Both the position numbers and the translations under genes were made by a program. From contig QPFY01000027.1 in assembly GCA_003665825.1 (NCBI GenBank), positions 26,129 through 90,128 on the forward strand: a stretch of DNA of 64,000 nucleotides, in the 5' to 3' direction. How positions within the stretch are numbered: position 1 is the stretch's first letter; every line of letters begins with the position of its first letter. Source of the DNA: Microbotryum silenes-acaulis. Taxonomy: Eukaryota; Basidiomycota; Microbotryomycetes; Microbotryales; Microbotryaceae. Shown piece by piece: positions 9,634 to 61,612 of this stretch. The notes under the pieces are model-generated. The model was not told the DNA's origin. It did no database searches and saw nothing but the letters and a program-made list of their open reading frames with translations.

Positions 9634-12600
9634 ATGTCCTCTTCGATGACCAAGCCCAAACCCAAACCACGCTCCTCTGTGGCCGGCAGCGCCTCCTCGT
9701 CGGTCCCGAACGCGGTCGACCCCAAGCTGATGGAACTCGCTCGCCAAATCGGGATCGCCCGCTTCAACGCGCTCGTGCAGTCCCGCGCGGGCAGCACCAG
9801 TACCTCCACTCCCACAGCACCACCCTTGAACCCAGCTCCAGTTCCAAAGGTGACTAGTGCCCCAACGCCCGAGTCCAGTCGGAGTAAAGCAGACAAGACT
9901 CCTGCGGAGCGCAAACCGACCTCGAAGCGAAAGTCCGTCAACTCGGTGGCCCTTGCTGTAGTCGAAACACCACCGAGCAAAAAGGGCAAGTCGAGGTCCA
10001 AACACGACAAGCATCACAATGACGAAGACGTCAATGGCAATGCTGATGATGCCCCTACCCACGATGACGAGGAGGAGCGCAAGGCTCGAAAGAAGCAGCG
10101 AAAGTTGGACAAAAAGGAGGCTAAACGCAAGGCCGCTCTCGAGGCCGAAGCCGACATGGAAGTGGATGAATTGGAATCGCCCGTCAAGGATCGTAAAAAG
10201 AAGAAAGGCAAGAAGGAGCAGGAGAGGACGGACAAGGAAGTGAAGAAACGGTCGAAGAAGAGCAAGAAGTTGGACAAGGGCAAGGGCAAGGAGGTGAGTG
10301 CGAGATCCCTTTGAAAGTTTTTCGGTGACCCGGAATTGATGATCTCAATACACTTTGTTTGGTCATCGTAGATCGTGCAGGATAACCTGAACGAGTCTTT
10401 TTCATCCGCGGCAAACCACCACCCGAGCCCGCCTCCAAAACCCATCGCAGAGGCCAAATCCAAGTCCAAGTCGAGCAGCAAACGGCCTCGACCTTCCGAG
10501 GTTGATTCCGAAGTCGCGGTGTCGCCCGTCAAATCTCCCCGCAAGAAGCGCAAGCTTGCGAACGGCTCGTCTGCGGCTGTCCCGTCCACCCAAGCCAACA
10601 CCGCCGTTTCGGCCCCTGCCCGCCCGGCAGTGAATGGTCTCCCTTCGACTTCCACCGACTCGCGAGACCTTGAACAATTGTTGGTGCAGACGGTGAACGC
10701 TCTACGCGCGTCTCCTTCGTATGCACATGAATCTGGCGTGTTTGGGGAAGGCATTGTTCAGCTGTTCCAGGCTCTGGTCGCCAAGGTGGCGAGTGCCGAC
10801 ATGCGACCAGAGGCTCCGCCGGCGTCGAACCACGACGACGATGATTCGAAGACACCCGAGGAGGACGAGCACGAGTACGAGCAACATCGTCGATTGAGCC
10901 AGACCAGCGGTCGCGCGCCTTTGAACGGTACCGAAGCTCCTGTGGCCTCGACCTCGTCGTCAACGCGCCCCGCTCTCACCTCGACATTTGTGGCACGCCC
11001 TACCGCCCACCCTACCGCCACCCCTACCGCCGATGCGCCCGAGACTGAAGCCGAAGCCGCCATAAAGGCCCGTGCAGCCAAAGCTGCCAAAAAGTTGCTC
11101 AAGAAGGAACGACGCGAAAAGAAGCAACAAAAGGAGGTAGCCGCCGAGGCGCCGTCGAGCCCACCCGAGGAGCAAGAAGTCGTCTCCCCCGCGCCTGATG
11201 AGGAGGACGGACCCGTGACGCCCCTTTCGTCGCCCGACAAGAACGAGAGGATGAACAAGGATCGGCCAATTCGGAAGCGATTGGGCAAGCTGGAGAAGGG
11301 CGCCTTGAGGTCAATGAGTCAGTCGGCCGGATCCTCGAGACAATCCTCCTTGACGCCAACTTTGACGTTGCCACCAGCTCGAGAGGAGCTCGTGATCAAG
11401 GTGTCGGACTCGCAAGCGGAGGAAGCGGAACGCGCGGCTATTCGAGCGGCCGAAGCAACTACCGAGTCGTCGATCTCTTCTCCCGACGAGGACGGTCCGC
11501 TCAACCACAGCACCGACCCCACCATTCGCTTCCGTGGCGAAGACGACGAGGCTTCAGAGAACGAGATTGATCAACTCGCCTCGACACCCGTGCTGGCGAG
11601 ACCTTCTCACCCCCTTCGTCAGGCTCCACGTTCGACCATCTCGGCCTTCTCTTCCGAGGATGACCCGGAGGAGATTGAACTCTCGCTGAGGACCCATACT
11701 TCCCCACGGAAGGAACGACCGTTGTCTTTGGACCCCGAGGTGGAGTCCGGAGATGAGTCCGAACCCCGGACCGAGGATGACGATGTGGAGGGGAACCACG
11801 AGGAGGAAGACGGCCACGCGAGAGAGAACGTCAATGACGGCTCAGAGAACAGGGGAGAGGAAGATGACGAGCCAACAGCACGGCCCAAGATCGAGCACGA
11901 TGGCGATGCAGCCATGGCCGATGCGCAAGCGCAAGACGAGTCCCACGTCGAGAAGGACGCCGTTCGCCAAGCAAGCCCGATCACGAACGGTGCTGTGCCC
12001 CCTTCGCCGGGCCAACGACAACCCGTCGATCCCGTCAACGTCCCGCTCCCTCCTTCTCCCTCGCCACCACCCCCAATTCGCACTATTGGCCACGATGATT
12101 CCGACGCCAGCTCCTCGTCCGATGACGACGATTCCGACTCGTCGTCGTCGTCGACGGCTTCGAACCGAGCGTATCGCAAACCTTCTCGCCCATCGATCGG
12201 TGCCGTAGCGACGAGTGCCTTTGGCTCGGCGGCATCGATGCGCAAAAATCGCGCCAAGCGTCAGTCGAGCCCGCTCAAGACTTCGTCACTCGCGCGGACG
12301 CTGTCGAGCACCGGTCCGGAGATCGACAAGGACGCCGAGATGGAGGAGGACGTTGACGAGCTGTTGTCGCAACCAGTTCCCAAAAGCGCGGTCCAGAAGC
12401 TGTTGCAAGATGCGGAGGAGGAGGAGCAGCGACTTGAAGAACCCAGGGGCCGGTCGACGTCGGTTTCCTCCTCTGAAGCCGACACGACCACCGCCGGGGC
12501 GGTCGCAGAACCCTCAAAGGAAGGCGCCGTGGAGGTGCAGAGGAACGGAGGTGGCGAAGCTGACGCTGGTAGCACGAAATCCCTCAAGGAAGTCAACAGC

Positions 12601-13447
12601 AGTCTCGAAGCGACGACCGCGGAACCCATGGAAGCGGTAAACCTCTCGGACATCGCAGCGCAGGCGAGCAGCACCCCCGGCACGCCGTTGATGATGGACG
12701 CCCAGGCTTCTCAGTTGGTCCGACTGGACCACCACGGAGTGGACTCGGACGAGAGTCAATACGTGCCCTTGATAAAGAGCCAGCCATTTTTCCTCGAGGA
12801 GACACAGCCGACGCAGCGGCTCCCAGGGTTTGTGGACCACGAGGGCGAGGAGAGCCAAAAGGTACGTTTTGACGTGGCCGGGTGGCCCCAAATATCACAG
12901 GAAGTACATTGGCTGAAGAAGGACCCAAACTTTGTGTGCGCAGTCATCGCAAACTATCCTGAACGGCTCGTCGCAAGTCAAGAAGGCCGTCGATGCCGTG
13001 ACACTGGACGTACCCTCGCAAGCGACGCCAAACGGACGGCTGACCCGAGCTGCCAGTCTCCGTGCGAGGACCGCATCACCCGGCCCCTCGGCGACAGCTC
13101 CATCCGCGAGTGCTCCGTCGTCCAAGAATTCCGTCAGCTCTCGACCACCTTCCGCGTCTCAGCCGTTGCCGACGACCAGCTTCCGAGGGCATGGTCGTGC
13201 TTCGTCGATGCGCGCCTTGTCCCAGCTGGACGAAGCGACCCCTCGACGTTCGATGCGGCATGCCGGTCCTTTGACGAGTCAAGGTTCTACGTTTTCTGCG
13301 AAAGGTGCCGCGGTTCCTGCTTTGAGCTGGGTCAGGAAGGGCGATGCTGGCGAGAACGAGAGCGAAGACGACAGCAGTGAGGACGAGGATCGCAAGGCGA
13401 ACGGCACCTCGACCAGGCCTCGAAAGTCCAAGGTGTTGTGGAATTAA
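9634..13447 (+). CDS. Large disordered, charge-patterned nuclear-type protein, function unknown
   Basis: Three exons (9634-10293, 10372-12861, 12944-13447) join in phase 0 and encode 1,217 aa. Only the first ~45 residues look foldable (PKLMELARQIGIARFNALVQ), plus one short helical stretch near the start of exon 2 (LEQLLVQTVNALRASPSYA). The rest is low complexity: Lys-rich basic blocks (KKKKGKKEQE type) that resemble nuclear localisation signals alternate with long Asp/Glu and Ser runs, and proline tracts. The C-terminal exon is Ser/Arg/Pro rich with two small acidic patches. Such composition is common in chromatin or nucleolar scaffold proteins, but I cannot assign a function. The 3' end of this gene and its flank were copied to 37,884-38,480. 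Confidence 0.75.
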
Positions 13448-13913
13448 TTTTCGAAGTATCTTGTATTTTTGCTTATGCGCAGTGATGGTGATAAGCGAAA
13501 TGTGATTTGGCATTGGCATTGCAAAGCATGTGTAATCAACCGAGGAAGCTATGACGTGCGCCCACGGCGGGCGCCAATGGCCGGTTCCCACAGGCGACGA
13601 ACTGGGAGCATTTCGTGCGAGGAGAACTCTACATGAACAAGGGTTCGACTCCATTCAGTATCATCACAAGTACTCTAACAATTGATCGGGTGCTGGTTTG
13701 CTGATGTTTTTCGAATAGGCATATAATTCACTTCTCGGGCCCGGGTCGTACGCGGACTGAAAAGTCCCAACGCCGGAACCCCGCACGATGGTGAAAAGCG
13801 ATGTGATCTACAAATATTTCGTTGGGAGCGAGGGGAGCACGGGCGAGGCCTGTATACCATGAGCCTTGGTGGGCTATGCCATTGGAAGCAATCACTGCCT
13901 GCTGGCTCTTCCT
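13448..13913. other. 3' flank of the disordered gene; source of a segmental duplication
   Basis: Non-coding. 13,448 to about 13,735 is repeated, together with the last ~300 nt of the preceding gene, at 37,884-38,480 in the same orientation. 13,736-13,913 is unique in this window. Nothing else was recognised. Confidence 0.6.
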
Positions 13914-14193
13914 TAGCATGTACGTCGAATGAACGCATTCGATGGGGGTCATTTCGCACGGTTCGGCTCGAACTCACCCTCTAGCACCCACCCACCCACC
14001 TCAAACAGGGCCCCTGCACAAGGATGACAACATGTAGTCAGAAAAGGTAACCTACGGGTTATAAATTTTTCTCGAAATTTCCTATGAATTCGGGCATCGG
14101 GCATCCCACTTGCAGGGGTTGCATCCCGCAACTCTGTGATGCCAGACCGATTCAACTTATTGCCATCCTCACGGACGCCCCTGACCGTCTGAC
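13914..14193 (+). repeat. Dispersed repeat R1, uninterrupted copy (280 bp)
   Basis: The left part (13,914-14,070) matches 44,084-44,235 in inverted orientation. The right part (14,072-14,193) matches 36,713-36,838, also inverted. Similarity stops at TAGCATGTACG on one side and GACCGTCTGAC on the other, so these mark the outer ends of R1. No coding capacity, terminal inverted repeats or A-tail were seen. The left half has a short CACC-type microsatellite that differs by one unit between copies. Confidence 0.75.
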
Positions 14194-15139
14194 AGACCGA
14201 GTTTAAAGTTTAAAATCATAAATTCCAGCTAGTCTTATTCAAAGACAGAATCTAACAAACGCTAGATCCGCTGGACCACCATAACATATCATATCATACA
14301 CCCATATTGTATACGGGCCATTGCCTCACTGGGAGTAGGACTGATGCCCCCATTTCTCAGGGTTTACACCAGTTTTCCCTCCTCCCCCTCGGCTCCCGGC
14401 TCCTGAGGGTAGATGGGGCAAGCTTGCCACCATCGCCTCCACCAGTGAGGTATACTACTCCACATTCTGTTGGAATGTCCACCACTTTCGCATGCGGCCG
14501 CCCCAAATTCTCCCAGCCCCTTTGATCAGCTCGTGATGCCATACCCGGTCCAGCCGCGTCCGCGATCGCTCGTCTAGAGTCCAGTAGATATCCGGTTTGG
14601 GTATCATTGGCATCGCAAACCACCACAAATGTGCCCTCACCAGTTTGGCAGCAAAGGTACATAACTCCTGTATCTGCAGGCCAGTCCATCCTTGTTGCCG
14701 CGCCTCGAGTTCGCTTCGCGTAGCCCGATACAGTTCCTGACCAATTTTGTCTCGAAGTTCTTGTCCCGATGGGCACTCTCCAAACGCATGTTTCTCTGTT
14801 TCCTCCTCTGCTCCACATATCACACACTCCGGGGAGGTCCCCAGTCTCTCTGAGCATCGCGAAGCAGTAGGCAGAACATGTGCCCGCATTTGGAGCTGTG
14901 TCTGTGCGGCATACGTTGACACTGCGCAAAGATATGGGTACTGCCCCGCTGAATGTCCGACATTCAATAGGAGTCAAACACTGTCGCCTGTCTTCTTCGG
15001 CAACGACTTCAGCTGCCAGTCTTCTTGAAGGAAATCTTCTTGCTGATATTGCCTTCCAGCCATTCGATGTTGTTGGCGGTCATTTTAGCGATCGTCCACT
15101 GCGGGAGAGCGAAGTCGGGGAAAGGCACAATGAGGTCAG
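14194..15139 (-). mobile_element. LINE (non-LTR retrotransposon) relic, 3' portion
   Basis: On the minus strand, 15,139 down to about 14,455 encodes the end of a LINE ORF2-type protein: the last part of the RNase H domain region, then a zinc-finger segment with CVICGAEEETEKHAF and a following Cys (C-x2-C...H...C), typical of the C-terminal finger after LINE reverse transcriptases. Two frame breaks and a stop near 15,010-14,970 show it is degenerate. 14,454-14,194 would be its 3' UTR; it is A/T-rich towards its end. Its upstream half lies at 25,031-26,540, separated by the copia insertion. Confidence 0.7.
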
Positions 15140-24627
<9,488 letters not shown>

Positions 24628-36191: not shown

Positions 36192-36354
36192 CTGATTATT
36201 GTTCCTATTATGGTACTTGGGATTGAGCCTAGCGGCGTGTCATTCACTCCTTAGTCGCTCAATCTCCCTACTTTACTAGTCTCTAATCTCTCTCCTTATT
36301 AGCTTTACGCTTCACTTTCTACCCTTCCGCGAGTCTGTCCCTTAGTCTCTGGCC

Positions 36355-36474
36355 ACTCTGTTCTCGTCCCTGTTCATTGGACTGAGTCGTGGTCATCATC
36401 AGGTCAGCTCTTTGGAATCTTACCTTACTCTGTTCTCGTCCCTGTTCATTGGACTGAGTCGTGGTCATCATCAG
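36355..36474. repeat. 48-bp direct repeat, period 72 bp
   Basis: 36,355-36,402 and 36,427-36,474 are identical or nearly so, each starting ACTCTGTTCTCGTCC and ending CATCATCAG. Non-coding. Confidence 0.8.
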
Positions 36475-36712
36475 TTACCACTCGAGAACATTTCTGCGAC
36501 AATATGCATCTTCAGTTCCCTCTTTATGGGGCTGACACCGGTTGAAGCAAGATGTATTCCCCATGCCTTGCCCGGCACCTGCGAGGCCGGAGAGCGATCT
36601 CGTGCCTCTCAACTTGGCGCCGGCGGCTCTCTCGCACTGGAATGCCGCGCTTCCCGCTTTCCGTCGGCGTCGGCATGTCCAGCCTTGGCGCGCGTTCAGT
36701 TTTCCCCCGACA

Positions 36713-36838
36713 GTCAGACGGTCAGGGGCGTCCGTGAGGATGGCAATAAGTTGGATCGGTCTGGCATCACAGAGTTGCGGGATGCAACCGCTGCAAGTGG
36801 GATGCCCGATGCCCGACTTCATAGGAAATTTCGAGTAG
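36713..36838 (-). repeat. R1 repeat, 3' half, inverted
   Basis: Matches 14,072-14,193 in reverse. It ends inward at TTTCGAG (36,829-36,835), exactly where the uninterrupted copy continues into the part found at 44,084. Confidence 0.8.
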
Positions 36839-37883
36839 AGTGATGTGCTGTGTCGTGTTTGAAAGCACGTGACTCTCTAGCTGCAGGAGCGTCCACAATC
36901 CTCGATATCCATACCATCATCTCCAGAGGAGTGAAAGGGTAATCATCCAGAATGTGCATGAGTACTGCGACTCGGCTGAGTGCGGGGGAATAGGTCCGCA
37001 CATGAAATTTGCAGTCGGCACATGAGAATTTCAAGCGTTTCCTGCGGTTGTGGGCGCCGGGCGGGGTCGATTGCGCGTGCGAAGCATCAGCGCGTTATCG
37101 CACCTCGCATCTTGAACATCGTTGACCACGCGCAAACTCGCCCTGGCTGCTCGTCCGCACGCCTCCAGACCATCACATCACAACAAGGATCACCCTATCG
37201 GTGAGAGCTCCTGCACATCCCATGCCGAGGCCCCTCGTCCCCCTGCTCAGAGCGCCGTGATAGCGCGACGAAGACCCACGTCAGCGACGCGTCATCCACT
37301 TCGGTCCAAACCGGCTTCTTCAGGTACAGGACGAGCCCGTGATCTCGTACGTGTATCTTCATGTATTAATTCACGGTCTGATGTTTTCAATGCCTCATCG
37401 AACCTCGTCTCTACGGGGGTACCGAGCACCAACGCCGCCCAGGATCTTGACCGAGGCCGACTCGAGTCAGCTCAAGCCGAGCTCGGGTTGTCACGTTCTT
37501 CGTCCAACCTGGGTCGTAGCTCGTACGTAGTATGTTGTGAGCTTACAAAGTTGGATGGGGCGATGTAGGTTAGTAGTATCTCTGACCTGGACGAACGAAC
37601 TGACATACTTGGCTATCGTCTAGCAGCGGACAACGACGATTACGAGGCACATGTTGGTGATGACGCTGGTGGGGAATTCTTTTGGTGGCAATGAAAGAGG
37701 TCTGTCAAAGGTACGCTCGGTAGCGTGATTGACCGATCGACTCACGGCTCTCTGTTCTACTGAACCAAATGCTCCACCCGCGCTACGGCTTTACTGGAGC
37801 TCGTGAGTTTCGGTTCGAGGGACGTCTCGCTTCTGACGTCTCTCTTCATCAGCGGAGTGAGCCGAGCAAGGTCCCATGTCCTC

Positions 37884-38480
37884 TCACTCGACCACCTTCC
37901 GCGTCCCAGCCTTTGCCGACGACCAGCTTCCGAGGGCATGGTCATCCTTCGTCGATGCGCGCCTTGTCCCAGCTGGACGAAGCGAGCCCTCGACGTTCGA
38001 TGCGGCATGCCGGTCCTTCGACGAGTCAGGGCTCTGCGCTTTCTGAGAAAGGCGCCGCAATTCCTGCTTAAGCTGGGTCAAGAAGGCCGATGATGGCGAG
38101 AACGAGAGCAAGGACGACGGCAGTGAGGCCGAGGATCGCAAGGCGAACGGCACCTCGACCAACCCTCGATAGTCCAAGGTGTCGTGGAACTAATTATCGA
38201 AGTGTTTTGTATTTGCGGCTTGTACGTGTGCGGTGATGGTGATCAGCGAAATATGACTTGGCGTTGACATTGCAAAGCGTATGCAAAGGACCTGAAGGAG
38301 CTATGACGATCACGCACTGCGGGCGCAACTGGCCGGTTTCCACAGGCGACGAACTGGGAGCATGCGATGAGAACTCTATAAGAGCAAGGGTTCGACTCCA
38401 TTCAGTATCACCATAAGTAGTCTAATAATTGATTAGGTGCTGGTTTGCTGTTGTAATGCGAATAGGCATCTTTTTTCGCT
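37884..38480 (+). pseudogene. Duplicated 3' end of the disordered-protein gene plus its 3' flank
   Basis: Closely matches about 13,140-13,735: first the coding end (SFRGHGHPSSMRALSQLDEA), then the stop region and ~290 nt of downstream DNA. A 1-nt loss and a substitution (GCTTAAGC against GCTTTGAGC) create a stop and frameshift, so it cannot encode the original C-terminus. It has no 5' part or promoter of its own and retains no poly-A, so DNA-level copying, not retroposition, is likely. Confidence 0.85.
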
Positions 38481-38694
38481 CCTCTGGGTCGCGTACGCGG
38501 GGACATTTGCCGCCGCCGGCCCGTACGCGGCCATATCCCCCAGACGAGGCCAGAGAGACTAGGTACGAAAGTTTCTCCGATCAATATCATAAACTAGATC
38601 GCAATTCCTGGCAGATTCGACGGTTCGTCACCTCATCTTCACAGGGCGGGCAACGCTCAGAGGACCGAGCTCCAAGCTCCACGGAGAAGCGCAG

Positions 38695-38703
38695 CATATA
38701 AAG
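38695..38703 (+). promoter_or_regulatory. TATA-like box upstream of the protease-recombinase gene
   Basis: CATATAAAG, about 165 nt before the ATG at 38,868, followed by a CT-rich tract (38,718-38,756) as is common near fungal transcription starts. Confidence 0.4.
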
Positions 38704-38867
38704 TTCGGGCGCCAAAATGCCTCCTCTCGTCCTCCTCTCGCTCTCCTCTCGTTCACCTGGTGCGCATCGCCCTCCACTGTCACCAAACTACCTCGAACCC
38801 TTGCACGCCTCCAACAACCCGCCGCCACATCGATCGACCTGCCCGCGATCCGTCGACGCGATCGCCA

Positions 38868-41800
38868 ATGATGGCTACTGGTGTCCCGCCTCCGTCATCG
38901 GTGCGACCGGTGGGACTCCCCAACTTTGAGCGATCCTGCTGGGCGAACTCGTTGCTGCAGTTCCTCCGCGTAGACCCGGATTGGGTTCGCAGTGTGCGAG
39001 AACTTGCACGGGCCAGAGCCGACGAGTTGGAGACTGCGAGCGGTAGGGTTCTCCGCTCCTGGTGCTAAGTGGGGCGACCAACGCGCCCGATCGCTCCACT
39101 GACTTTTCGACCGTCGGACTCGTTCGGACCTGCAGACGGGCCCATGGCGGCTCTCGAGGGGATGCGCATGGTCCTTGATGGAGATGCGGCTGGCGTTGTA
39201 CCGTTCCGTCGATTCCTCTCCGGTGAGTCGCACGCGATCGGGCGACCCGGGAGCCTCGGTCACCTCGCCGCGCTAGCGCACTGACCCCTCTCCCCCCCCC
39301 ACACGACGCGTCGTCCATCCCCACCCGCAACAGGCGCAATGACTGCGACCGGCGGGCAACCCATCGCGGCCGGCGATGCCGACCCCATTGATGCGCTCGA
39401 CGCGCTCGTGCGAGAATTTCCGGAGCTGGCCCTCCCCGTCGAACGAAGTGCGAGCCTGCTTGCCCTGCATCGAGGCGCGGAACCCCGAGCTCGCCGCCAA
39501 GCTCCGACGACGACAGGAGCGCCTCGGCAGCTGTGTGGACGGCCCAGTCCAATTATTTGAGGGGTACCACCACCCCTTGGTCGCGCGCTCGACCCCAAGT
39601 CCTGGCGGATCTACCGGAATGCACCCACCAAAGGTACGTCGTGAGCGGGACCTTGCTTCTCGTGTGGCACCGCAACTGGCCCTCCGACCGACCACCGCAT
39701 TGCGACCCCCGTCAGGTGTTGCTTCCGGGAAGGACTTGCCCACGTCGAGGCAAAGCTCGCTCGCGGAACCTCGCCCATCATCGTCTGCCTTGGTCGAGCC
39801 CCCGGATTCGTCGGCGACCGGTTCAAGACGATTCCCCTCCCTTGCCCGACCCCCATCGCGGTCGCGCCGGCCCTCGACGCCCGAGGCGAGGATGCGTCGA
39901 CAACGCCCCCGGTGCAGTCGGCGCACCTCATGAGCCTCCTGCTCTACCATCCGACCCGTTCCCACTACACCTGCGTCGTGCGATCAGGGGACCGCTGGTT
40001 CCACGTCGACGACTCGAACGTCGAAGAGGTCACCCAGCCGTATTCGTGTCACTCGATGGACATCCTGCGACTCTATTCGCGCGAACCCGTGCGTACCATG
40101 GTCCAATAGCGCCGTGGGGGGGTCGAGCATCGCTGCGTGATCTGATCCTCGAAATTTCGACTTCCATAGGCCGGCGAACTCTTCCACCTCGACCGTCCGT
40201 TCGCTCCCACACTTGCTCCAGCCCGCCCGTCCCCAATTGGCTCTCGCGCCCTCGCTGGCTTGGAAGAGCCAGACTCCGTCGCCGTGGATCATGAACAGGA
40301 GGGGCTGTCGGAGGCAGGCGACGAAAGCGTCTGGACTCGCGGACTGTCGGCGACGCTTACCGACATCATCGGCAGGACGGTGCGGCCCCTCTCGGCCATC
40401 GACGAGCTCCCGATCGGCGGCATCCTGCACCACTTTCTCGTCACGGCCTTCGAAGGGCAAGACATGGAGACCGAAGTTCAGCGCATCGTCGCTCTGATGC
40501 GGGAGTCCCTGTCGACGATCGGGGTCGTCGAAGGGGAGCTCCACGAGGACGGGGTCGGGGTCGTCGTCGCGATCGTCGCTACTCGACTCGGGGGCGCCCG
40601 CGCCTGGTCGGCAATGCGTTTCGACCGCAATGGAGCCTCACCGGCGATGCAGGCCAGTTCGCAGGGGAAGGCGCACGCGGGCAAGGTCACGCAGGTCCGG
40701 CTCGAGGTTCACCCGACAGGTCCGAACGGCGTAGCTGCCCCGAACGCGGCGCAACCGGCGACTCTCGCGGCGCCGCTCTCGCGCGCCTAGAGGACCACGC
40801 TCGACCGCGAGCTCTACGCCCTCCGCGAGATGCGCGGCGTTGACCCCTCGCGTGCGCGCTCCGCGCTCGCGCTGTGGCACGGCACCCCGGACGTAGATCG
40901 GTTTTCTCTACGGGTCCAGGACCTCCTCTTCGCCTCCGGCCGGCTCGACCCTTTGACGCGCACTCTACTCGAGCGACCGCATTCAGCCTACGTCAACGCC
41001 GCGGAGGCGTACTGTCGAGGCTTCCAGTCGAATGGTGTCAAAGGGTCGATTTGGCTCTACGGACTCGGGGGCTCGATGATCGACGAGCCCACGGTCCTCG
41101 CGCTCGATGGGATCGGCCCGGTGCTGCTGCTGCACTGTCGCGTCGCGCAGCATCGGGCGCACCACGTCGTCCTACCCGTGGTGGCGAGCCAGTCGGGCGA
41201 GCCGCCCGCGGCCGCGTCGATCGCTCGACTCGTTCGTGAAGCGATCCGAGGCCTCGGCTACGCGGCGACCTTTGATCGCGTCGACGAGCCGCTTCTCGTC
41301 GAGTCGGCCCCGCCGCTCTTGCACCGACTCAACGGTCGCCCGAACCTCTATGTCATCGACCGCCACGTCACGCCCGTGGTCGAGCGAGCCATTCGTCGCC
41401 AAGCGAGGGGCCAGAAGCTCGAGTTCTCGTTTGGGCCAGGTCGTACTACCGCCGGTACCGAGGGTCGATCCGCACCCACCCCACAAAATGTCCTCTTGTG
41501 GGCGCGACTATCGGACGAGGACGCCAAGACGGCCGACTCCCGGGAGATCATCCTCAAGCAGTTGCTCGAAATGGTCGAAGCCTCGACCGAGTTGGGGGGA
41601 CCCGTGTTCCCAGCGGTGCTAAACCTCGACATCGTCTTTGAATTTGCTTCCAGCTTTCGTCACCCGCTGGCCACGCGCAAGGCCTATCGGCACGTCCTCG
41701 ACATCATCGCCTCGAGACCGACGACGATTCTGATGGCGAACCTCGACCGGCTGTCGCGTCGCGCCGCGGAGATCGAGACCGCGCTGGACAAGTTTGAGGA

Positions 41801-43587
41801 GCTAGGTGCGCGCTTCGCCGTGCCGACCTGCTCTCTGCTGCCCGAGAACCCGGCTGCTGGCGCGGACGTGGCTGCGAGCGATCCCTCGTCGGCGTCTTTG
41901 GGGTCATCCACGAGCTCGGCCTGGACCTGGTTCGACAGAGAAATGTTCGCCGACGACGGCCGTCGTCAGCTCGAGCACTCGCTGGCGTTGTCCGCCGAAC
42001 AAGGATTCTATTCGTCCTCGACCGTGGTCGTCGACAGCGCCCTCGCAACCGCCAACGTCGCGCTCGACGCCGGGCGTCACCACCAGGTCATCGAGTTGCG
42101 CAGCGCGCTCGCCGACTACGCCGCACGACACGGTCTCGACAAGGTCGTCACCTTCGCTCGCTCCTCGACAAACCACCTGTCGGAAGGCTCGCGGATGCGA
42201 CAAAAGGCGTTCTTAGGCTTACTGAAGCCTCGGGCACTCGCGGGCACCCACATCGAGCTCGCCGAGTCCGCCGAGTCCGCCGTTCTGCAGCGGGAGCTCC
42301 GCTCGAGAGGAATCTCGCAGGCACTCGTGTTTGTTGTCTCCGTCGACCGCGCCCTCCGCCATCCCGAGCACTACGACGCGCTCGCGCGAATGGCCGGGGA
42401 GCAGGGGTTACACGTCGTCGCCATGGTGTGGCCCGCCGACTGCGCGTCCGAGTTGGCGGGGCAAATGGTCACTGCTCAGGGGTCCACCGGGTGAGCTCGA
42501 TACTTGGGCGAAAGGGCGCGTAGCCCAGCCGGTGGGAATCCCACCACTGACACAGCAAACTACGGGGTGACTTTTGCTCGACAGGTTGTTCTACCCGCCC
42601 GCGACGTGCGCTTGGTTCGGCGGACTTTTGCCGCGTCTCCAGGCGGGCCTGAGCCGCCCGACGATCCTCCCCGCGGTCCTCATCAGCCCAACTTTGACCC
42701 CCGCGCCCATGTTACAACGCCGTGTCCAGGCCGGCAAAAGCTTCACTCAAGGCTTCAACGCATCGTCGCATCGCCTCGAGTCAAACAAGGTCGTCCCGGG
42801 GAGCTTGATGGAGGTGTCTCTGAGCTCGGACGAGTCGACTGCGGAATGGATCAAGACGATCCAAAGATGGTTGCTTGCGCAACTCGAATGCGCGACCCTC
42901 AACCTCACCTGTTTCGAAGGTTTGGGTTCCTACATCTGCGCTTGCTCGGCGTCGCCGGCCCCTACCTCCCATCCGAGCGAATGCACGTGCGGCTGTCCTC
43001 TTTGCGCGGGTCTGCGCGCCGCGACGTGCTCGTACCACACCGCGGGCGACCCGGAGGAGCGTAGGTATCTCGACTGGTGCACGTGCACGTGCACCGACCA
43101 CCCCTCCCACCTCGAGCAAGCGGGGTATGCTCGTACGTCGAAGGAGCGCGCGTACCAACGACGCAAGTCACCCCCGACCGACGCCACCACTAGCGTCATC
43201 GTCGGTACATGCGCCATCTGTTTGGGGCCGGTCCGGGTCGATCCGCCCAAAAAGGTCTCGCGCAAGATCATTTATTGCACTGAGGAGTGTCGTAAAAGCG
43301 CCTCCAACAAACGACAAGCCGGGATGTGTCGCAAGCGCGTGGACGGCCAAGAGTGCGGCAAGATCGCCGCATGGAACGGTGTGCCGGATTTCTGCTCGGA
43401 GCATCAAGATTTGTCGGATATCGACCTGGCGCAACGCCCCGATCTCGACAGGTGCGGTTTTGTTCGTTCGGAAAGTGTTTCTCATGGGAACGCGAAGAAG
43501 AAGACGGGTCCTTGCATGAAGGTGAAGAAGAAGACATTGAGGAGCTGCGAGGCGTGTCATCGTTGGATTTCGTGCGACGTAAAGTAG
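38868..43587 (+). CDS. Ubiquitin-specific protease fused to two serine-recombinase-like domains and a Cys-rich tail
   Basis: Eight exons close one 1,375-aa frame: 38868-39042, 39136-39222, 39334-39447, 39531-39633, 39716-40100, 40170-40730, 40791-42490 and 42585-43587. Residues 1-288 resemble a USP (C19): Cys box GLPNFERSCWANSLLQFL (Cys24), a PIIVCLGR strand, and His box HYTCVVRSGDRWFHVDDS (His243). Residues 289-700 are unrecognised. About residues 709-825 match the resolvase fold: VLLWARLSDED (Arg714, Ser716 as R-x-S) and ILMANLDRLSRR (D-R-x-x-R, Arg795/Arg798). About residues 927-1020 repeat the pattern: TFARSST (Arg932, Ser934) and FVVSVDRALRH (Arg995/Arg998). The tail (1043-1375) has many Cys pairs, suggesting zinc binding. 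The TAG at 40,788-40,790 is the 3' end of a 60-nt intron. The exon 3/4 and 6/7 joins are least certain. Confidence 0.65.
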
Positions 43588-44083
43588 AGGGTCGCGGGGG
43601 TGACCATTTGGGTGCATGCACCGTGGGTGAACACCTTGTGCAGATGATTTGTTGTAGTGACCACTTGAATCAAAGATGATTTTTGTGGGGGGCGTCTCGT
43701 TGGCAACCCTTCGTAACAGGGCAGTGAATTCCAGGAGCCAGGGTCTGGGCGTCCGCAGTTGCTTTGTATGAGCTAGAACCCTAGAACAGCGAAGACAAAG
43801 TTACTCTGACACTGCAGTGTGACCCCACCCAGGCTCGGAGACCTGGCCATCGGATTCGCGGATTCGCACCCGAACACCTTCGGGCGCGGGCCCGTTTGAC
43901 CGGGGTCGGGGCTTTCCCTACTTTCCACTGCCGCCTACACCCTTTGCGCACCTGGGCCCGCAACTTTGCAGTTGAGCCCGGGCCGGAAGTTGAGCAACCG
44001 CACGTACTACATCCAGGGAGTACCTCAGCATCAGCAACATCCCGATGTCTGCCCGATGCCGAGTTCCTGGAAACCGGAATCTA

Positions 44084-44229
44084 AAATTTTATAACCCGTA
44101 GGTTACCTTTTCTGACTGCATGTTGTCATCCTTGTGCAGGGGCCCTGTTTGAGGTGGGTGGGTGCTAGAGGGTGAGTTCGAGCCGAACCGTGCGAAATGA
44201 CCCCCATCGAATGCGTTTATTCGACGTAC

Positions 44230-44235
<6 letters not shown>
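44084..44235 (-). repeat. R1 repeat, 5' half, inverted
   Basis: Matches 13,914-14,070 in reverse, with one GGGT unit fewer in the microsatellite. Its inward end is at the right boundary of the 7.2-kb segment. Confidence 0.85.
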
Positions 44236-44261
<26 letters not shown>

Positions 44262-56454: not shown

Positions 56455-59400
56455 ATGGCACGAACGCGACCCGCGGCCAAGAAAAAGCCGTCTTCCACCT
56501 GGTCCCGTCGCCTCTCTGTACTGCTGCTCGTGTGGGCCGCGATCGCCAGCGTGGACGTCGTCATCGCGGTCAAGAAGCAGGACTTCAAGACGTGCGAGCA
56601 ATCTGGCTTCTGCAATCGCAACCGACAACTCGCCGACCGAGCGATCGACGCTTCCTCTACTTGGAAATCGCCCTACTCGATCGCTAGCCCGCCCCGCTTC
56701 GAGGCAGGGCGCTACATCGCGTCGGTCAAGAACGCGCTGTTCCCTTCAATCAGCTTCCGGCTCGAGATCCGCTTCCAGAACGATGGCTTGGCGCGCGTGA
56801 TCGTCGACGAGGTCGATGGATTGAGGCAGAGGTACAACGAGACCGCTTCTTGGGCCTTGGTGCAAGAACCTGTTCTTGATCTCGACGACGCTCATTATTC
56901 GGTCGAGATCGATGCCAAGCAATCGACCATCTCGTACGGTCCGCCCCAGCACGGCCAACAGGTCCAGGTCCAACACGACCCATTGCTCATCACCTTCCTC
57001 CGCGATGGACAGCCCCACATCGTCCTCAACGAGAGGGGCTTGTTCAACATGGAACACTTTCGCGTCAAACCCATCGCCGGCCAGGACCAGGGCGAGGTCG
57101 TCATTCAGGACCCGGACCATCCGACCGAACAGACCGTCATCGTACCCGAAAAGGCCTACCCGGGCTTTTTACCCACCAGCGACGACGGCATGTGGGAGGA
57201 GAATTTCAATGGCAAACAAGACTCCAAGCCCAAGGGTGAGTGCGCGTCCTCACGCGTTAGATTTGCACTCGGCTAAAACTTAGCTTGCCCGCGCACGGAA
57301 ACAGGCCCCGAATCGCTCAGTCTCGACATCAACTTCCTTGGTTACGAACACGTCTATGGTATTCCCCAACATGCCTCGACGCTGAGTCTCAAGCAGACCA
57401 GGTACGTCAGCGCATCTGCAACAAGCTCAAAGAGAGCAGCCCCCAAACTAACCGAACAACCCAACACAGGGGTGGCACGAACGCTTACACCGACCCTTAC
57501 CGCCTCTACAACCTCGACGTCTTTGAATACGACGCAGACTCGGAGATGGCCATCTACGGCTCGATCCCCTTCATGAAGGCCCACCGCGCCGGATCGACCG
57601 TCGCCGTCTTTGCCGCCATCGGATCCGAGATGTGGATCGACATCACCAAGAGCTCGACCCCCAAGCTTATCACCTCGGCCTTCAAGAAGAGGTCCAGGGA
57701 CGGCGCGTCGACGGATGCGGGTCCTTCTCCGGTCACAACGTCGACGCATTGGATCGCCGAATCGGGCATCTTGGACCTTTTCGTCTTCTTGGGGCCTTCG
57801 TCGCTCGACATCTTTGACCAATACACGACCTTGACGGGCAAGATCCCCATGCCGCAATACTTCGCTACCGCCTACCACCAATGTCGATGGAATTATGTCA
57901 ACGAAGAGGACGTGCAGGAGGTGCAGACCAAGTTCGACGAGTTCGACATCCCCATGGACGTCATGTGGCTCGATATCGAATACGCCGAGGAGCATAAGTA
58001 CTTTATTTGGAACAAAGACTACTTCCCCACACCTGAAAAGATGCAGCAGAAGTTGGTCGATCGAGGGCGTCAGGTAAGCATGACCATTAACAAAGCGGAC
58101 TCGCGGTGACTTGGATCATTGATATCTTGAGTATCTGAGTATCTCCAGCTCGTCGCGATCGTCGACCCGCACATCAAGCGCACCTCGTCGCTCCACGTCT
58201 ACAAAGAAGCGCAAGATCTTGACGTGCTGTGCAAGGACCGCGACGGCAACGAGTTCCGCGGATGGTGCTGGACCGGCGACTCGGCTTGGGTCGATTTCTT
58301 CCACCCCAAGAGTTGGGACTGGTGGGTTTCGTTGTTCAGGTTCGACAAGTTCGTCGGCTCGACCAAGAATTTGTACATTTGGAACGATATGAACGAGGTG
58401 GGTCTCGCGGTCGTCGGCGAGTGAGCGTCTGGAGTAGGCAACTAATTTGTTCTCAATGCCCGCCTACCTTAGCCTTCGGTCTTCGACGGACCCGAGATTA
58501 CGATGCATAAGGATGCGATCCACTACGGAGGATGGGAACACCGCGATGTGCACAACATCAACGGCATGCTCTACGTACGTTCCCGGAGTCGTCGCAGCTG
58601 ATCGGGGCGATCGAGCGATCACTGACTGCCGAGACTCCTTGCACCCGCAGCAAAACATCACCGCCCGGGGTTTGGTCGAGCGTGAACCCGTGCCCAGGCG
58701 CCCCTTCGTGCTCACGCGCGCCTTCTTCGCGGGTTCTCAACGCTTCGGCGCCATGTGGACCGGTGACAACCTCGGCCGTTGGTCACATCTTCAATCAACG
58801 CTGCCGATGCTGCTGACGAACGGTATCGCGGGCATGACCTTCGCCGGCTCGGACACGGGAGGTTTCTTTGGTGACCCCTCCGAAGAGATGATGACGCGTT
58901 GGTACCAAGTCGGCGCCCTCTCACCCTTCTTCCGCGCCCACGGTCATCTCGACACCAAGCGTCGCGAACCTTACCTCTTTGCCGAGCCTTACCGCTCGAT
59001 GATGCGCGAATCGATTCGCCTGAGGTACAAGATCTTACCGGCGATGTACACGGCCTTTTACGAAGCGAGTCGCACGGGTATCCCCATTTTGCGGCCACAG
59101 TACGTCGTCTTCCCCAACGATCCCAAGGGTTTCGACATGGAGGATCAGTTCTACCTCGGTTCGACCGGATTGTTGGCCAAACCCGTCGTCCACGAGGGGG
59201 TGACGCAAGCCGAAGTCTACATCTCCGACGATCAGCCTTACTACCACTACTTCAACCACGATCTTTATTTCGGTGTCGCGTCGGGTGGAACGACGATCAA
59301 GGTCGCCGCGCCGCTCGATTCGACCCCTCTCTTCCACCGTGGTGGTTCCATCTTCCCTCGCCGCGATCTTGTTCGTCGCTCGTCGATCTTGATGTGGAAG

Positions 59401-61612
59401 GACCCCATCACCCTCGTCGTTGCCGTCGACTTGACCGGCACCAAGGCCGAGGGTTCGCTCTACCTAGACGATGGCGAGTCCTTCGACCACGAAAAAGGCG
59501 ACTTTGTCCACCGAGGTTTCCAGCTCGCCCCTGCGTCGCCGGACAGCAAGTCCCTCGTCCTCTCTTCGCGCTCACTCGTCGACCCGTCGGCCGTCGGCTT
59601 GCAAAAGTACGATGCGACCTCCAACGCCTGGGCCAAGAAGATCGAGGATGTCGTCGTTCGAGAGATCCACGTCCTCGGTCTCGCGAGCAAACCTACCTGT
59701 GTCCGACTCGCGGGTACGCAACAAGGCCTCGAATTCGACTGGATAGACGGCCTGGCCGCCTCGAGTGCTCGTCGACGCGGTGGAAGACGTTCGGCCGAAC
59801 TCGTCATTAAAGATGCCGGAGTGCTCGTCGTGCAAGACTGGGACATCACCCTCAACTTTGGAGGCAACGCATGCCCGACCGTTCCTGCCATCGACCATGA
59901 AGCTCGCTTGCAATCTCCCGAATGCGCCCCCGGTCAGTTCTACTGCCAGAACCAAGGTTTCACACCCAACTGTATCCTTCGTTCGCGCGTCAACGACGGG
60001 ATCTGCGATCCTGAATGCTGTGACGGTTCGGACGAAACGGACGGCAAAGCCAAGTGCGGTAACTTTTGTGCTGAGCTCGCAAGGGAGAACGCGAGGATCA
60101 TGGCGGAAAAGAAGAGGAAGCATCGTGTTGGCGCTGCGATTCGTCGGGATTACATCAAATTCGGCGTCAAGGAAAAAGCGAGGCTACAGGATGAGATCGA
60201 AAAGGGCCAAAAAGAACTCGAACGATTGACGGTCAAGCAACAGTCGTCGCAGGCCACTTTGGAGAGATTGGAGAATGAGGCGGCGGGGGATATTCAGCGC
60301 AAGAAGGAGAGCTTGTTGTATAAGAAGATCGTCAAGATGCAGCATGCGATCGAGGCTCTGCAGAAACATCGTCAGAACCTCGAAGGGCATATCGTCGAAC
60401 TGAGTGGAGTGTTGGCGGATCTTTCGGTGAGTTCATCGTGCGGACTTCGTGGGAAGTACAGAACATTGGCTGACTCTTATTCCGTTCGTGCTTACTTGTG
60501 TGCAGCGCGACTTCAATCCCAACTACCAAGACATGGCCGTCCTCGGCGCCACTCGAGCGTTCAAGGAATGGCAAACGACGAACAACCTCCTCGACGAAGA
60601 TGGCAAACCCTACCAAATCGAAGGCGAGATCCTCCAGGTCCCCGTCGCCAACAACATAGTCGACTTGACCGATGACCAACTTAATGCGCTGCGCAACGAG
60701 GACCCGCTCAACCTCATCGATAGCTTGTCGACTCGCGTTGGCGAGCGGGTTATTCCGAGCTCTTCCTCGACGAGTAAGTTTTGGAATATGGGCAAGCGTG
60801 TACGTGTGGGTGCAAGCTCCTACATGCTTACGTTATCTCGTGTTTGGCGCAGTCTTCAACATCGGCGAGTACATCCCCGACAAGTTCAAGCCGCGCTACG
60901 ATGCCTTCAAGAAGAGCTTGATGGATGTGCTCGTCAGCACGGGCATCATCTACCCTTCCGCGTCGACGGAGGGTGCCGAAACGGCTGGTGAGTACATTCG
61001 GACGGAGCTGCTTCCCTTCCTACGTACCGTTATTGACAGTACATGCATATCTTGGTAGAATTGACGTCTGCACGCGCGGCTGTCAGCGCTTTGGTAGATG
61101 AGAAGGGTCGACTTGAAGAGCGCATCTCGTCGGCGCAGGGTGACCTCAACCGCGACTACGGACGCGATTGGGAATGGAAAAAGCTGGCCGAAACATGTCT
61201 TGAGAAAGATCACGGAGGGCGAGTTATGCTTCAAGCATTTGATCACAGTGTCACTAGATCACTCATTGTACTTGTCCTATAAAATCACAGGTTCGAGTAC
61301 AAGGTCTGCTTCTTGGACAAGGCTGAACAGATTCAACACGGTGTGCCGACGTCACTTGGCACCTTCTCCGGCTGGTCCCCGACCGCGACCGTCGGAACGG
61401 ACGAGTACTACCTCGAACAGAGCTACAGCGAAGGAGCGCGATGCTGGAATGGACCCGTGCGATCGTCGAGGGTTTTGTTGACCTGTGGGACGAAGAACGA
61501 GCTCGTGTCGGTGACCGAACCGGACAAGTGCTTGTATCTGTTCAAGATCAACACACCCGCCGTTTGCTTCGAGGAGGCGACTAACTCGTCGAACGAGAAG
61601 GATGAACTTTAG
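56455..61612 (+). CDS. Glucosidase II alpha-beta fusion (GH31 catalytic subunit joined to MRH-domain beta subunit)
   Basis: Ten exons close a 1,497-aa frame: 56455-57235, 57305-57401, 57470-58073, 58149-58397, 58473-58574, 58651-60426, 60506-60773, 60853-60987, 61059-61218 and 61291-61612. The last intron appears to be GC-AG. A signal peptide ([16 protein letters not shown]) precedes [14 protein letters not shown], typical of glucosidase II alpha. GH31 motifs follow: [20 protein letters not shown] (nucleophile Asp), MWTGDN (acid/base Asp). The alpha part ends near residue 1,030. In the same exon, [13 protein letters not shown]...[17 protein letters not shown] starts the beta part (one LDLa-like module), then a coiled coil, and an MRH domain ([29 protein letters not shown]) ending in KDEL. 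Glucosidase II trims glucose from N-glycans in the ER. Normally the subunits are separate genes. Confidence 0.9.

Follow-up and report, generated by a model that had tools for sequence, protein, structure and literature searches.

A fungal locus that appears to join a ubiquitin-specific protease-like part to a serine recombinase domain, in decayed or erratically modelled form

The locus and its reading frame

The locus occupies positions 38868-43587 on the + strand of the window, by which is meant the whole stretch of 64,000 nucleotides that was analysed (positions 26129-90128 of contig C27). Its parts are, in order, a region resembling ubiquitin-specific proteases (USPs), a middle region, the catalytic domain of a serine recombinase (R1), a second and weaker stretch (R2), and a cysteine-rich tail (Table 1). 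Exon numbers follow an earlier eight-exon model, and the sole comparison protein throughout is BQ2448_4753 (989 residues) of Microbotryum intermedium (Basidiomycota, Microbotryomycetes), whose alignment with the window runs collinear between exon 2 and the beginning of R2.

Table 1. Positions in the window of the parts of the locus and of the surrounding candidate segment
Feature	Position	Strand	Observations
Possible empty site or deletion product	13913..14193	-	Flank halves at 97.6% and 95.6% (BLAST), meeting at 14070/14071
Possible inserted segment holding the gene	36836..44082		7,247 bases; copies of its flanks adjoin elsewhere
Exon 1	38868..39042	+	USP Cys box, Cys24 codon 38937-38939; UCH 13.2 bits alone, profile 1-39
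Exon 2	39136..39222	+	GT-AG intron 39043-39135 with CTGAC branch site; kept in BQ2448_4753
Exon 3	39334..39446	+	Conserved in BQ2448_4753 up to ...VER; conserved frame lost near exon end
Exon 4	39442..39633	+	Peptide NEVRACLPCIEARNPEL...YHHPLVAR; identical to BQ2448_4753 at 32/58 aligned residues
Exon 5	39716..40088	+	USP His box, His codon 39963-39965; UCH 18.8 bits, profile 211-241
Exon 6	40170..40787	+	No Pfam match; 46% identity to BQ2448_4753
In-frame TAG, exon 6/7 boundary	40788..40790	+	Nonsense codon or weak-intron end
Exon 7 middle region, fold unassigned	40791..41462	+	No Pfam match; 53% identity to BQ2448_4753
R1, serine recombinase catalytic domain	41463..42146	+	Pfam Resolvase, catalytic columns, model and PDB comparison
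R1 catalytic codon starts	Arg 41505, Ser 41511, Arg 41676, Asp 41745, Arg 41748, Arg 41757	+	
R2, possible degenerate recombinase-like stretch	42072..42488	+	R-S-S 42159, D-R-A-L-R 42345
Exon 8, Cys-rich tail	42585..43587	+	Cys pairs read from sequence; zinc binding possible

Introns I1, I2, I5, and I7 carry a CTRAY branch site and I4 does not (four of five). Comparison with BQ2448_4753 places the next conserved peptide after exon 3 in a different frame, and the conserved peptide of exon 4 does not plainly fit in phase with either exon 3 or exon 5 (the latter via intron 39634-39715). A sequence-only reading had reported that eight exons close into a single frame of 1,375 codons. Such closure is no evidence: keeping exons 1, 2, and 6-8 constant, along with the end of exon 5, leaves 5,642 closing chains of GT-AG introns, and 18 of these have exactly 1,375 codons. 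Two of the 18 use GTACGT at 39634, which is the best donor for intron 4: in one, exon 4 is read in a frame that loses the peptide conserved by BQ2448_4753, and in the other, intron 3 measures 37 bases and exon 5 lacks its start.

The in-frame TAG at the boundary of exons 6 and 7 bears on whether the locus is one gene at all. Introns that would remove it use the donors GTCCGG, GTTCAC, or GTCACG, or the passable GTAGCT at 40731; a CTRAY branch site is absent from every one of these candidates, and the GC pattern of the stretch 40695-40790 is coding-like (0.81, 0.62, 0.78). Exons 7 and 8 are open throughout and joined in phase, the intron between them (42491-42584) being of GT-AG type with a CTGAC branch site. 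All this suits a split into neighbouring genes, one for a USP that stops at the TAG (40790) and one for a recombinase whose start lies within exon 7. Against such a division, BQ2448_4753 reads through the matching place in a single annotated chain, and the donor at 40731 would yield a 60-base intron that takes the TAG out; two genes are an unlikely alternative. The TAG may be read either as a nonsense codon or as the last bases of a weak intron.

The quality of the assembly can be gauged from contig C16, of which positions 827455-849825 match window positions 41632-64000 with 99.92% identity over 22.4 kb. The 17 differences comprise 14 gap columns—mostly single bases in short one-base runs—and three mismatches. 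On the simplest reading, these are overlapping, unjoined ends of C27 and C16 with one-base assembly errors about once per 1.6 kb, allelic differences being the weaker reading; the C16 match was accordingly rejected as a paralogue and taken as the overlapping end of the same region. Given these differences, assembly error is plausible for the one-base breaks in the gene and less so for an isolated in-frame stop. The copy at 38868-43587 is damaged or misassembled, and is probably inactive unless its frame has been spoiled by assembly errors. BQ2448_4753 is damaged or mis-modelled as well, at sites other than those of the window copy; both copies may be decaying, or both may reflect errors of assembly and annotation.

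Conservation between two fungi

BQ2448_4753 is the only relative found when the recombinase half and the USP half were each searched against 5.8 billion proteins; about 8,000 candidates were scored per search, and distant relatives may escape. No relatives were confirmed in IMG/VR, prokaryote genomes, plasmids, or phages.

Identity to BQ2448_4753 is highest in the R1 core (56/71 residues, 79%), in the helix that follows (46/60, 77%), and at the start of R2 (23/30, 77%). It falls to 54% in exons 2-3, 55% in exon 4, and 48% in exon 5 (exon 6 and the middle region: Table 1), and to 21% in exon 1 (7/33). Within R1, the first third (6/20, 30%) and a linker (11/28, 39%) are also low, the former because the annotated model of BQ2448_4753 seems there to be in another frame; by our reading, its peptide matches another frame of the window. 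Nothing in BQ2448_4753, which ends at the R2 start, corresponds to the remainder of R2 or to the tail. Judged by these segment identities, the recombinase core seems to be the part held most strongly by selection. That the USP and recombinase halves belong together follows from the collinearity of BQ2448_4753 across both: at the level of sequence, the linkage of a USP part to R1 is seen in two fungal genomes, with the recombinase part the most conserved. The union of a USP with one serine recombinase domain in a single gene, which was part of the original proposal, is supported by the Pfam matches and by this relative; the pairing looks genuine and uncommon.

The serine recombinase domain R1

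The Pfam Resolvase profile (PF00239, cut-off 23.3) matches 41433-42488 with 30.4 bits and the whole exon 40791-42490 with 28.6 bits; the former match covers profile positions 48-100 of 145 only. The R1 score lies well above those of shuffles and decoys. Residues R15, S17, R72, D95, R96, and R99 of R1 align to columns that are invariant in 28 other rows, the reference positions in gamma-delta resolvase being R8, S10, R45, D67, R68, and R71. This column test used an alignment without BQ2448_4753, whose inclusion misplaced the N-terminal columns, we think because of its long upstream part. An F-R-H-P-L segment falls on the resolvase R-P position, as had been noticed from the sequence. R1 is, on these comparisons of sequence, homologous to the serine recombinases and keeps their catalytic positions.

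As to the long helix E of serine recombinases and its conserved E-R region, a helix is predicted at R1 residues 150-180 (pLDDT about 43-55), and the E-R-E pattern aligns only partly, past an insertion. Foldseek with the R1 model lists serine recombinases mixed with Argonaute and other alpha/beta folds, none reaching E <= 0.001, and an AF2 model of R1-R2 built from a two-row alignment was uninformative. Searched against the PDB by sequence, exon 40791-42490 gave no match at E <= 1 and a two-row profile none at E <= 10; the sole NCBIfam match was XisF (10.5 bits, E 0.21).

The second stretch and the tail

The pattern R-x-S followed by D-R-x-x-R does occur twice in exon 40791-42490, with spacings of 80 and 62 residues, and it was on this pattern that two serine recombinase domains had been proposed. 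The first of these is R1, borne out by Pfam and the catalytic columns; the second, R2, did not fare as well, having no Pfam Resolvase match at E <= 10 and a score near chance. On our own recombinase profile, R2 (whose tested stretch overlaps that of R1) reaches 5.8 bits, beaten by 1 of 500 R2 shuffles and 1 of 500 R1 shuffles. The bare motif pair arises in 361 of 50,000 R2 shuffles, and the pair with its hydrophobic context—a context picked after viewing the sequence—in 3 of 50,000. A PDB sequence search with R2 returned one row, which was irrelevant. R2 may be a worn second catalytic domain.

These figures also bear on whether the motifs are an accident or artefact in an arginine-rich protein. 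The bare double motif is found in 56 of 20,000 shuffles of exon 40791-42490, and both this frequency and the score of R2 would suit an accidental origin. For R1, however, chance is opposed by the above-cut-off Pfam match, by the gap separating it from shuffles and decoys, and by the catalytic columns, and conservation peaks over the motif region; R2 taken by itself is still compatible with chance. As an account of the locus, chance is very improbable.

The tail had been likened to the zinc regions of large serine recombinases. In the TP901-1, A118, and phiC31 integrases, too, a long C-terminal part with cysteine pairs comes after the catalytic domain; they differ in that a USP part precedes the domain here and a second recombinase-like stretch follows it. 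The cysteine pairs stand, and a family match does not: PF07508 (Recombinase) and PF13408 (zinc ribbon) are absent after R1 at E <= 10, and no Pfam family matches the exon 8 tail above its cut-off.

The ubiquitin-specific protease part

Both the Cys box (Cys24) and the His box reported from the sequence are present. A conceptual join of exons 1-6, which reads across frame breaks, matches Pfam UCH (PF00443) in two stretches with 26.1 bits, above the cut-off of 23.9 that no single exon passes (13.2 and 18.8 bits). When the exon with the His box is compared with the PDB by sequence, the best five of seven rows are USPs, with E-values that are weak (0.056-0.38). The order of Cys box and then His box, and the score of the joined exons, are as in ubiquitin-specific proteases (peptidase family C19); the differences are that a recombinase domain follows and that the catalytic His is not kept in the relative.

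A working deubiquitinase, as had been suggested, is another matter. Activity is doubtful: BQ2448_4753 has Asp at the position of the USP catalytic His and no visible Cys box at its annotated start (the window copy keeps both Cys and His), and the USP exons of the window hold frame problems. Because of these two departures in BQ2448_4753, deubiquitinase activity would not appear to be conserved, in so far as a pair of copies allows a judgement.

Copy number and surroundings

Searches of the 29.85-Mb genome (88 contigs; counts are lower bounds) place the gene at one locus. A third Resolvase match, on contig C3, scored 15.0 bits, below the cut-off, and was rejected; by our reading, the end of its frame is SUN-domain-like.

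A single hint of mobility is that the gene lies within a candidate insertion. The flanks 36713-36835 and 44083-44236 occur side by side and inverted at 13913-14193, so that 36836-44082 may have been inserted without target duplication, or deleted from the other copy; serine recombinases insert without target duplication. In a gapped alignment, the right flank carries weaker similarity to the left piece across the junction 14070/14071, which speaks against a clean insertion. The insertion reading is further complicated by a weak second copy of the left flank piece beside 44082 (score 39, reached by 0 of 200 shuffles). Just upstream of the gene, 37887-38500 is an 85% copy of 13140-13755—the 3′ end of the ORF 10372-13380 plus flank—and this displaced ORF end makes the segment 36836-44082 composite. 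A match at C27:23152 was set aside, being limited to a short stretch of the right flank at 81%.

The proposal that the gene is transposon-encoded was not confirmed: the gene is single-copy, and none of three pairs of ends compared for inverted repeats stands above shuffles, their scores being reached by 95, 32, and 145 of 200. Single copy, conserved recombinase core, and ends of this kind would also suit a host gene that captured a recombinase domain long ago and now serves some purpose other than recombination, without any mobile element. An old and widely kept gene is, however, disfavoured by the finding of one relative only among 5.8 billion proteins (about 8,000 candidates scored per search), and the possible insertion boundary at 36836-44082 also counts against it; we consider such capture possible, although less than even in our judgement. 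Somewhat doubtful, too, is a new class of eukaryotic mobile element, a deubiquitinase-fused tandem serine recombinase on a segment of about 7 kb (36836-44082), inserting without target duplication and present as decaying copies in two fungi.

Repeats and other genes are found elsewhere in the window. About 200 bases within 36300-36522 match more than 40 places in the genome, many at 97%-100% (at least 46 rows; best 40 of 68 candidates), and a different repeat family adjoins at 14194-14400. Two near-identical Ty1/copia-type polyproteins, inverted and with overlapping ends, lie at 15260-20716 (-) and 19946-24439 (+), with zinc knuckle, protease, integrase, and reverse transcriptase motifs read from their sequences. 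At 58438-60675, glycosyl hydrolase 31 and PRKCSH-like (glucosidase II beta) domains share one open frame, which may combine the glucosidase II alpha and beta parts in one protein.

A probable new architecture and its possible meaning

Serine recombinases are rare in eukaryotes, and the transposases of the IS607 family are small. Here, by comparison, the catalytic domain follows about 750 residues that include the USP part. IS607 transposases have an N-terminal DNA-binding domain (PMC6188088), the fungal serine recombinases described are IS607-type genes acquired by the yeast Saccharomyces kluyveri (PMC2715888), and certain eukaryotic and large-virus elements carry IS607-like serine recombinases together with Fanzor2 (PMC3627910). 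A Pfam scan of eight frames of the window gave no TnpB/Fanzor family match. Among the matches listed from the literature (titles and abstract starts, mostly of non-subscription papers), none describes a fusion of a USP with a serine recombinase.

The locus is best read as the relic, or the erratic model, of a new serine recombinase architecture: a new arrangement within a known enzyme family. It probably descends from one ancestral fungal gene composed of a USP-like part, the middle region, R1, the weaker R2, and the Cys-rich tail. Such a protein would have served a segment that is, or once was, mobile as its recombinase, with R1 cutting and rejoining DNA through its serine (codon 41511), and with R2 and the tail perhaps aiding pairing or contacting DNA or partners. 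The USP part could have spared the protein, or nearby or target chromatin, from ubiquitin-dependent loss, or have changed that chromatin. If the fusion is true, a recombinase of prokaryotic type would have been refitted with a eukaryotic control module, and the gene would be a naturally occurring case of recombinase adaptation to chromatin.
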